From: Phaeovulum sp.
Lineage (GTDB): Bacteria; Pseudomonadota; Alphaproteobacteria; Rhodobacterales; Rhodobacteraceae
Assembly: GCF_030684035.1 (NCBI RefSeq)
Contig: NZ_JAUXPI010000037.1
Coordinates: forward strand, 1-64,000
Direction of reading: 5' to 3'
DNA length: 64,000 nucleotides
Shown here: one piece after another, positions 15,028-17,998 of the stretch
How the letters are laid out: the number at the start of each line of letters is the position of its first letter
How positions within the stretch are numbered: the first letter of the stretch is position 1
Program-made: the position numbers and the translations under genes
The notes under the pieces: generated by a model
Seen by the model: the letters and a program-made list of their open reading frames with translations, nothing else
Database searches by the model: none
Told to the model about the DNA's origin: nothing

Positions 15028-15052
15028 GTCGCGCCGCGCCGAAGTTTTTCTG

Positions 15053-15080
15053 AAACCCCGCCCTCCAGGCGGGGTTTTTT
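15053..15080 (+). terminator. Intrinsic terminator of the alpha operon
   Basis: A 10-bp stem (15053-15062 with 15068-15077, loop CTCCA) is followed directly by TTTTTT. It lies 25 bases after rplQ and ends the ribosomal cluster. It is also where the converging reverse-strand small gene ends, so it may serve both directions. Confidence 0.85.
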
Positions 15081-15083
15081 CTT

Positions 15084-15272
15084 TCAGGGGTCAGCTTGCG
15101 GCGGGGGGTGCAGCGACAGATCGTCGCCCACGCGCGCCAGAAATTCTTCGACAATCTGTGCAAACTCGCTGTCGTCCAGCTTTGTCGTTGCCGCTGCCTC
15201 CAGCAAATCCGCACGAAGACGCTCGGGCAGAAGCGCCAGTCGGGCATTGATAACAGCGTCTGGTTCGGTCAT
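15084..15272 (-). CDS. Small hypothetical protein, convergent with rplQ
   Basis: A reverse-strand frame of 62 codons (MTEPDAVINARLALLPERLR...) running towards rplQ and starting 76 bases from the luxR start, divergently. The predicted protein is helical and acidic, with a Pro-rich end (HPPPQADP). A GTG at 15302 would add ten residues. Neither start has a strong Shine-Dalgarno. I do not recognise it. The composition (few rare residues, sensible helix) favours a real gene over a shadow, but the overlapping forward frame is also open. Confidence 0.45.
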   Translation of the reverse strand: MTEPDAVINARLALLPERLRADLLEAAATTKLDDSEFAQIVEEFLARVGDDLSLHPPPQADP

Positions 15273-15294: not shown

Positions 15295-15342
15295 CAACCC
15301 ACTCACTTTAAGGTTGACGATATTCCTGGCAACTTGTCTAAA
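15295..15342 (+). promoter_or_regulatory. Candidate luxR promoter and dyad
   Basis: TTGACG (15314-15319) and TCTAAA (15337-15342) are 17 bases apart, a good sigma70-type spacing. A dyad CAACC (15295-15299) / GGTTG (15312-15316), 22 bases across, overlaps the -35 box and has the size of a lux box. Transcription from this site would begin at about 15349, at or inside the luxR start codon. Spotted by eye; no matrix score. Confidence 0.4.
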
Positions 15343-15348
15343 AAGACA
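15335..15348 (+). promoter_or_regulatory. Inverted repeat TGTCT-N4-AGACA over the luxR start
   Basis: TGTCT (15335-15339) and AGACA (15344-15348) form a perfect 5-bp inverted repeat with four A in between. It spans the proposed -10 box and touches the ATG. It could be an operator for LuxR itself or for another regulator, or a small RNA hairpin at the 5' end of the mRNA. Confidence 0.35.
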
Positions 15349-15959
15349 TGACTACTCATTCTGGAATCGATCTGGAACTGCGCAAACTGGGGCGACTTGC
15401 CCCACAAGGCTTCTATATCGGTCTGCATATTCGCTTTACCTCGCCGCTGATGTCTTTCCAGACCTACAATCCGACGTGGGTCAACCATTACACGGAAAAC
15501 GGCTATGTGCTGCGCGACCCGATGACAGCCTGGGGGTTTTCTACCACCGGCACCATCCGCTGGAGCGACAAGCGGCTGATAGACCCGTTCGGACTTTTCA
15601 AGGAAGCCGCGACCTACGGCCTGAAATATGGGGTGACGGTCGCCTGTGGGCCGATCCGGTCGCGAACAGTGTGCAGCTTCGCCCGCGATGACCGGGAATT
15701 CACCGATGAGGAGATCGCGGTGATTTCGGCCATTGTGCACAAGCTGCACGACATGACCGAACCCCCGGAAAAGCTTACGAGTGCCCAAGTCGAGGCGCTC
15801 AAATGTATTGCGGGGGGCGACCGTCACGCTGCGGCGGCCGCAAAGCTGGGAATCTCGGAAAGCGCGCTCAAGGCACGGCTCACCTCTGCTCGGGACCGGC
15901 TGATGGCGCGTACGACGGCCGAGGCAATTCAGCGGGCCAAAGATTACCGACTGCTCTGA
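15348..15959 (+). CDS. LuxR-family quorum-sensing regulator
   Basis: A 203-residue transcription factor with an N-terminal acyl-homoserine-lactone-binding domain (about 1-140) and a C-terminal LuxR-type HTH (about 143-200, AAKLGISESALKARL). Residues that line the ligand pocket in TraR and LasR can be matched: W44, Y48, D57 (in RDP) and W72. The partner luxI lies 55 bases downstream, so this is probably the cognate receptor. The first ATG lacks a Shine-Dalgarno and nearly coincides with the predicted transcription start, suggesting a leaderless message. The next Met (35) would delete part of the domain. The HTH ends with an unusual basic tail. Confidence 0.9.
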   Translation: MTTHSGIDLELRKLGRLAPQGFYIGLHIRFTSPLMSFQTYNPTWVNHYTENGYVLRDPMTAWGFSTTGTIRWSDKRLIDPFGLFKEAATYGLKYGVTVACGPIRSRTVCSFARDDREFTDEEIAVISAIVHKLHDMTEPPEKLTSAQVEALKCIAGGDRHAAAAAKLGISESALKARLTSARDRLMARTTAEAIQRAKDYRLL

Positions 15960-16014
15960 TTACCCGCCTTCCGCAAGGTTACGACTCTACCACAAACCCT
16001 TGTAGGAGGCTGCC

Positions 16015-16605
16015 ATGCGAACGACTACACTTTCCTTTGAGAACCTGCACAACCACGGCGAGCTTTTCGCCAATATGCTTCGCGCTCGGCGTGAGCTTTT
16101 CATCGTCCACAACAAGTGGAACCTGCCCGAGGCGCTGGGCATGGAATATGACCAGTACGACACACCTGCCAGCCGCTGGGTGGTGGTGCATGACGAACTG
16201 GGCAGGGTGTTGGCTGGCAATCGCCTGACCCCCACCACCGCCAAATGCGGCATCTATACCTACATGATCCGCGATGCGCAGCGCGGGCTTCTGGATACGA
16301 TTCCGGCAGAGCTGCTTTATGACGAAGCACCGGTGTCCGAGACTGTATGGGAAAGCTCGCGCCTGTTCGTGTCGCACCATGTGCCGCTTGCCGAAAGGCG
16401 CAAGGTGCATGCCAAGCTGGTGGCCGATCTCGGCTCGGCGGCGCGGCAGGTGGGTGCGAAAACCTGCCTCACCCTGCTGAATGCGAACTGGCCGCTCTGG
16501 GCTGGTCGCGTCGGGGTGAACATGTCGCCGATGGGTCCGGTCATGGTCATCGACGGTGTGCGCAATCAGGTGGTGGCGATGGACTTCTCGTCGAACCTGC
16601 ACTGA
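16015..16605 (+). CDS. Acyl-homoserine-lactone synthase (LuxI family)
   Basis: A 196-residue LuxI enzyme that makes N-acyl-homoserine lactone from S-adenosylmethionine and acyl-ACP (or acyl-CoA). The conserved catalytic set is present: R25/R26, F29 and W35 in RRELFIVHNKW, D46 and D49, R70 in AGNRLTPT, E113 and R116 in WESSRLFV. TAGGAGG precedes the ATG. The gene directly follows luxR in the same direction and is followed by a hairpin terminator, so luxR-luxI looks like a closed two-gene unit. Acyl chain length cannot be predicted from the sequence alone. Confidence 0.94.
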   Translation: MRTTTLSFENLHNHGELFANMLRARRELFIVHNKWNLPEALGMEYDQYDTPASRWVVVHDELGRVLAGNRLTPTTAKCGIYTYMIRDAQRGLLDTIPAELLYDEAPVSETVWESSRLFVSHHVPLAERRKVHAKLVADLGSAARQVGAKTCLTLLNANWPLWAGRVGVNMSPMGPVMVIDGVRNQVVAMDFSSNLH

Positions 16606-16615
16606 ATGCGGTGCC

Positions 16616-16640
16616 GAGCCGCCCCGCGCCGGGGCGGCTC
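16616..16640 (+). terminator. Hairpin after luxI
   Basis: A perfect 10-bp stem (16616-16625 with 16631-16640, loop GCGCC) begins 11 bases after the luxI stop. The following sequence (GTCAAAGCGTGCTTTTG) is only weakly T-rich. It separates luxRI from rarA, which starts 48 bases later. Confidence 0.6.
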
Positions 16641-16687
16641 GTCAAAGCGTGCTTTTGTCTGCCCCGTGGCAGGGGTAGGGTGGGTGC

Positions 16688-17998
16688 ATGGCCGATCTGT
16701 TCGACACGCCCGACGCTACCGCGCAGCCGCAGGCCTCGCGCCCGCTGGCCGACCGTATTCGCCCGGCCACCCTGGCCGAGGTGATCGGTCAGGCGCATGT
16801 GCTCGGCCCCGAGGCACCCTTGGGCGCGATGCTGGTTGCGGGCTCGCTGTCGTCGCTTATTCTCTGGGGGCCGCCCGGGGTGGGTAAAACCACCATCGCG
16901 CGGCTTCTGGCTGATGCGACAAGTCTCAGCTTCGTGCAGATCAGCGCGATCTTTTCCGGCGTGCCCGAACTGCGCAAGGTGTTCGAGGCGGCGCGCTTGC
17001 GCCGCCAACAGGGGCGCGGAACCCTGTTGTTCGTTGACGAGATTCACCGCTTCAACAAGGCGCAGCAAGATGGCTTTCTGCCCTATATGGAAGATGGCAC
17101 CATTGTGCTCGTGGGGGCCACCACCGAAAACCCTTCCTTCGAGCTGAACGCGGCGCTGCTTAGCCGCGCGCAGGTGGTGGTGCTGGAACGTCTGAGCCTT
17201 GCTGATCTGGAGCGGCTTGCGCAGCGGGCCGAGCAGGCGCTGGGGCAGGCGCTGCCGCTAACGGCGCAAGCCCGCGAGGCGCTGCTGGAGATGGCCGATG
17301 GCGACGGGCGCGCGCTGCTCAACCTGATCGAACAGCTTGCCGCGTGGAAGTTGCAAGCCGCGCTGGATACAGCGGCTCTTTCCAGCCGCCTAATGCGCCG
17401 CGCCGCGAAATACGACAAATCCGGCGACGAGCACTACAATCTCATTTCCGCGCTGCACAAATCCATCCGCGGGTCAGACCCGGATGCGGCGCTCTACTGG
17501 TTCGCGCGAATGCTGGAGGGGGGCGAAGACCCCCGTTTCCTTGCCCGCCGCCTGACCCGCATGGCGATCGAGGATATTGGCTTGGCCGAGCCCGCCGCGC
17601 AGGCGCAATGCCTGCACGCCTGGCAGGTCTATGAACGCCTCGGCAGCCCCGAGGGAGAGCTGGCGCTGGCGCAGGCGGTTATCTACCTTGCGCTCGCGCC
17701 GAAATCGAATGCGGGCTATGCCGCCTATGGTGCGGCGCGGGCGGAAGCACGGCGCACCGGGTCGGAGCCGCCGCCAAAGCACATCCTCAACGCGCCGACC
17801 AAGCTGATGAAGGACCAGGGCTTTGGCGCGGGCTACGCCTACGACCATGACGCAGAGGACGGCTTTTCCGGGCAGAACTACTTTCCCGAGGGGATGCGCC
17901 GCCCGCTGCTGTATCAACCCGTCGAGCGCGGCTTTGAACGCGAGCTGAAAAAGCGGCTTGAGTGGTTTGCCAAGCAGCGCGAAAAGCGCGGCGGTTGA
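16688..17998 (+). CDS. rarA: Replication-associated recombination ATPase RarA (MgsA)
   Basis: RarA, 436 residues, a clamp-loader-like AAA+ ATPase that acts at stalled replication forks and interacts with SSB. Walker A is GPPGVGKTT (about residue 60) and Walker B is LLFVDEIHRF. The sensor segment GATTENPSFELNAALLSR is typical of the WRNIP1/RarA family. The C-terminal half (from about 250) is the RarA oligomerisation domain (ALHKSIRGSDPDAALYW, then ARRLTRMAIEDIGLA). The start is the ATG after GGGTGGGTGC. It is unrelated functionally to the luxRI unit before it. Confidence 0.95.
   Translation: MADLFDTPDATAQPQASRPLADRIRPATLAEVIGQAHVLGPEAPLGAMLVAGSLSSLILWGPPGVGKTTIARLLADATSLSFVQISAIFSGVPELRKVFEAARLRRQQGRGTLLFVDEIHRFNKAQQDGFLPYMEDGTIVLVGATTENPSFELNAALLSRAQVVVLERLSLADLERLAQRAEQALGQALPLTAQAREALLEMADGDGRALLNLIEQLAAWKLQAALDTAALSSRLMRRAAKYDKSGDEHYNLISALHKSIRGSDPDAALYWFARMLEGGEDPRFLARRLTRMAIEDIGLAEPAAQAQCLHAWQVYERLGSPEGELALAQAVIYLALAPKSNAGYAAYGAARAEARRTGSEPPPKHILNAPTKLMKDQGFGAGYAYDHDAEDGFSGQNYFPEGMRRPLLYQPVERGFERELKKRLEWFAKQREKRGG

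Follow-up and report, generated by a model that had tools for sequence, protein, structure and literature searches.

A gtaR-gtaI locus behind rplQ in a Phaeovulum genome, with a predicted GtaR operator over the -10 element and a probably leaderless start codon

The luxR and luxI genes that follow the ribosomal protein gene rplQ in the analyzed stretch of DNA (64,000 nt of one Phaeovulum sp. contig, called the window here) are the gtaR-gtaI, or luxR1-luxI1, system of Rhodobacterales, which is ordinary and widely conserved. We favor, with a probability of roughly 0.8, a reading in which the two genes form an operon, gtaR is leaderless, and GtaR is a self-repressor released by acyl-homoserine lactone (AHL). 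Comparison across relatives makes a strong case that a single conserved element combines the operator of a LuxR autorepressor, the -10 element, and a leaderless start codon.

A preliminary description had reported a luxRI pair directly behind rplQ, and the pair is real. All features are on the forward strand unless stated. The ribosomal cluster ends with rplQ (ribosomal protein L17; 14617–15027; TIGR00059, E = 2.8e-43; PF01196, E = 1.6e-39). The gene gtaR (15348–15959) codes for a LuxR-family AHL-responsive regulator of 203 aa, whose autoinducer-binding domain scores 52.6 bits against PF03472 (cut-off 23; E = 4.5e-14) and which phmmer matches to the RhlR and SdiA structures. All six AHL-pocket residues (W, Y, D, P, W, and G) are found in GtaR when it is aligned with RhlR, and the alignment reaches residue 193. 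The C-terminal HTH has a GerE score of 15.6 bits, below the Pfam cut-off of 23.5; a low GerE score is also found for GtaR of Cereibacter sphaeroides. An AHL synthase of 196 aa, with orthologues in relatives, is encoded by gtaI (16015–16605; PF00765, E = 1.2e-8; Autoind_synth domain, 35.2 bits with a cut-off of 24), and synteny identifies the next gene, for the AAA+ ATPase rarA/mgsA (16688–17998; PF12002, E = 6e-65), as a conserved downstream neighbor. The genome has only one autoinducer-binding LuxR gene, gtaR. GtaR of Rhodobacter capsulatus and LuxR1 of Dinoroseobacter shibae have been placed in one orthogroup with conserved synteny (PMC11655674).

The promoter and repeat proposed for luxR in the preliminary description are both present. 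A -35 element, TTGACG (15314–15319), is separated by a 17-nt spacer from a -10 element, TCTAAA (15337–15342), and five bases lie between the latter and the ATG (15348–15350), which predicts that transcription begins on the A of this codon or on an adjacent base. The TGTCT-N4-AGACA repeat covers the -10 element as the core palindrome TGTCTAAAAAGACA (15335–15348), and its final A is the A of the gtaR ATG. The full operator, AACTTGTCTAAAAAGACATGAC (15331–15352), lies over the -10 element and the start codon and matches 20 of the 22 positions of a published motif, RACMTGTCYWWWWRGACAKGTY, which was derived from the gtaR upstream regions of 24 Rhodobacteraceae in work on C. sphaeroides (PMC11655674). 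According to Fogg 2019 (PMC6363796), the site that GtaR binds in its own promoter spans the -10 element and transcription start. Judged by its sequence, the palindrome is a GtaR operator of the LuxR-family type. Exact copies of TGTCYWWWWRGACA occur at two sites in the 2.96-Mb genome, and the 22-bp motif, with up to three mismatches allowed, also occurs at two sites in the whole genome, one of them at gtaR. Within the window alone there is one exact match to the palindrome, and allowing one mismatch gives two, compared to 0.6 expected.

The strongest evidence against chance is position and register, which are kept upstream of about 80 orthologues. Relative to the luxR ATG, the GtaR motif is placed at exactly -17 in 81 distinct upstream sequences, and a further 13 have it at -3. 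Across 74 non-redundant orthologous promoters, the operator, -35 element, -10 element, and ATG share one fixed register, with TTGA in place in 67 and TCTAAA in the same position in 60. Two blocks are conserved in these canonical promoters, -44 to -30 and -19 to +5, and information is close to zero upstream of -45. The gtaR -10 element matches the consensus at only four of six positions, and because the operator encloses it, some of its conservation reflects that of the operator. A subclade including Tabrizicola and Cypionkella is without the canonical operator and -35 element. In some relatives (at least seven loci), the palindrome lies 14 bp further downstream, centered in the first luxR codons, and the -35 region differs in several of the relatives with this arrangement.

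The luxR start codon had been described as lacking a Shine-Dalgarno sequence and as possibly leaderless. The first point is confirmed, as none of AGGA, GGAG, and GAGG occurs between -18 and -5, and comparison of orthologous loci supports the second: the Shine-Dalgarno core is found before 0 of 77 luxR genes versus 68 of 71 luxI and 78 of 78 rplQ genes. In the window, gtaI has a perfect AGGAGG (16004–16009). Upstream of the gtaR ATG, a stop is reached before any other in-frame start, and the next Met is codon 35. Since the fixed-register promoter puts the start on the ATG and the Shine-Dalgarno core is absent, the gtaR message is probably leaderless, with transcription starting on the ATG. The same core is missing from rarA and is found in only two of 75 of its relatives. 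In the rarA start region (16637–16690), a TA-containing, -10-like element ends a few bases before the ATG. The sequence around rarA suggests that it is possibly leaderless too; leaderless translation would then not be special to gtaR, and leaderlessness may be common in this area.

Alternatively, gtaR could be transcribed from further upstream, from another promoter or by read-through from rplQ, as a leadered message translated independently of a Shine-Dalgarno sequence; the hexamers would then be incidental and the palindrome a roadblock or an RNA hairpin. Initiation of this kind is possible, and by a simple test for terminators 24 of 79 relatives are without one after rplQ, compared to 55 that score. 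We nevertheless consider such a start unlikely. An intrinsic terminator of rplQ, AAACCCCGCC-loop-GGCGGGGTTT-TTTTT (15052–15085; ΔG = -17.8 kcal/mol), lies between rplQ and gtaR, the region upstream of the two conserved blocks shows no conservation, and an operator alone does not account for a -35 element held at a fixed distance in most orthologues.

In the proposed mechanism for the self-repressed, leaderless operon, RNA polymerase would use TTGACG-N17-TCTAAA and begin transcription on the A of the gtaR ATG or beside it, and gtaI would be read from the same transcript through its normal ribosome-binding site. At low AHL, a GtaR dimer on the operator would block polymerase and gtaRI expression would stay low; long-chain AHL from GtaI would then free the operator of GtaR and induce the operon. 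For this strain, we infer the leaderless start, the AHL response, and the type of signal. A response of the gtaR promoter to AHL is expected by analogy, because the palindrome reads as a LuxR-family operator and GtaR of the model species represses its own operon until AHL is present. The C. sphaeroides work (PMC11655674) states that R. capsulatus GtaR represses gtaRI without AHL. In D. shibae, AHL addition raises luxR1 expression within 10 min, and deleting CtrA-phosphorelay genes does not affect it. This rise of luxR1 after AHL, and the fact that LuxR proteins are mostly activators, would also fit GtaR as an AHL-dependent activator at a lux-box-type site instead of an AHL-released repressor. 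That reading is very unlikely, however, given the repression reported for R. capsulatus and a site that covers the -10 element and start, the position of a repressor.

The preliminary description had also placed a main luxRI pair near this part of the chromosome in some other Rhodobacterales. A neighborhood comparison of 80 named Rhodobacterales loci bears this out, with rplQ upstream at 79, luxI downstream of luxR at nearly all, and rarA at most within the stretch compared. The rplQ-luxR-luxI synteny is already published, L17 being one of the luxRI neighbors given by Cude and Buchan 2013 (PMC3824088), and adjacency to rplQ is an inherited neighborhood. The suggested coupling of quorum sensing to this neighborhood, in which shared control with the rplQ operon would tie the pair to growth, is favored by that near-constant adjacency, but we reject it as extremely improbable, since the strong terminator separates rplQ from gtaR, gtaR has its own promoter and a variable distance from rplQ, conservation stops at -45, and the D. 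shibae luxR1 transcript responds to AHL. At 10 loci, in Tabrizicola and other relatives, the orthologous pair near rplQ and rarA stands in tandem with a second, divergent luxR-luxI pair.

The second site for the 22-bp motif in the genome (contig C55, 2558–2579) matches 21 of 22 positions and lies 78–99 bp upstream of an XRE/HTH_3 regulator gene. The best 30 motif loci from 247 genomes include 12 before a gtaR-type gene and at least eight before an XRE gene; one more is a ninth XRE case by its coordinates, and the remainder are single cases. With gtaR status read from search E-values, an XRE-upstream site of at least 19/22 is found in 28 of 53 genomes with gtaR and 0 of 34 without it (Fisher P = 3.5e-8). 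The genomes compared are related, and kinship stays in this comparison: support in a tree built from the XRE protein (120 aa) is too weak to remove it, with too few supported independent pairs of XRE site and gtaR. A reversed motif never reached 19 upstream of the XRE orthologues. These patterns suggest that the XRE regulator is likely a second direct target of GtaR, and it is a concrete gene to test for the indirect control of ctrA by LuxR proteins in R. capsulatus and C. sphaeroides. Its assignment as a PraR orthologue was rejected as unsupported by the neighborhood, in which a hisN-like gene follows.

An unannotated gene for a protein of 62 aa (15084–15272, reverse strand) lies beside gtaR and diverges from it across the operator. 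It belongs to a conserved family (E = 2.5e-5 with an HMM built without the window copy) that was found by clustering and HMM; tblastn with the ORF at E = 1e-5 gave no matches, and the protein matches no Pfam or NCBIfam family. Similar ORFs, with the consensus LFxxLMRLPxxxRxDLLEFLGATPVxDAQL and a pooled pN/pS of 0.39, stand upstream of gtaR in divergent orientation at about 50 of 162 loci. The family goes with the canonical operator (41/68 versus 3/59, P = 9e-12). Genome-wide, the gene is single copy and adjoins gtaR in 11 of the 12 genomes having it; two close relatives of the window are without it. A consensus scan gives a putative divergent promoter, TTGCCA-N16-TAAAGT (15305–15332, reverse strand), with a score of 9/12 that is by itself not evidence of function. 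A conserved element of the CAATTTAAGG type, here CACTTTAAGG (15304–15313, no strand assigned), makes up the -44 to -35 block of the 74 promoters. It is retained more often at loci with the small gene (38/41) than at those without it (15/27; P = 6e-4), as expected for the -10 region of that gene, and is likely that region of the divergent promoter, a UP-like element of gtaR, or both. The element was rejected as a recurrent genome element, having a single occurrence in its own genome, at gtaR.

A bidirectional operator could control both the leaderless gtaR and the divergent small protein, with a conserved remote operator at the XRE regulator, and the small protein could modulate XRE as CinS does PraR. 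We regard this core circuit, which is not described in the literature searched, as doubtful; if true, it would be a route for indirect ctrA control by quorum sensing. The small protein was also compared, as a candidate CinS/SinI-type (CinS/MmaP) mimic of the XRE C-terminal dimerization helix, and rejected (hhalign score of 13.9; column-shuffled controls, 14.7–19.3).

The published gtaR-gtaI system accounts for the palindrome and promoter and does away with the suggested ribosomal coupling, and the XRE-upstream operator and the divergent small gene are two new testable leads. The R. capsulatus gtaR-gtaI operon likewise joins a LuxR autorepressor and an AHL synthase under the same motif family and has its operator across the -10 element and start. 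Known GtaR targets there include gafA, whose promoter is without a matching motif (PMC6363796). The D. shibae luxR1-luxI1 pair likewise has an orthologous regulator and conserved synteny; it is AHL-induced and stands at the top of a quorum-sensing hierarchy with further luxRI pairs, unlike the single autoinducer-binding LuxR here. In Rhizobium (cinR-cinI-cinS with PraR) and Methylobacterium (mmaR-mmaI-mmaP with PraR), a small protein likewise accompanies the quorum-sensing locus and an XRE-type regulator takes part in the circuit. The small gene here is divergent and does not follow luxI, the gene after XRE is hisN-like and not metK, and the similarity between small protein and XRE is not significant. 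Cereibacter sphaeroides keeps a gtaR orthologue with the same operator family in the same synteny; gtaI has been lost, and CerM/CerN took over CtrA control.
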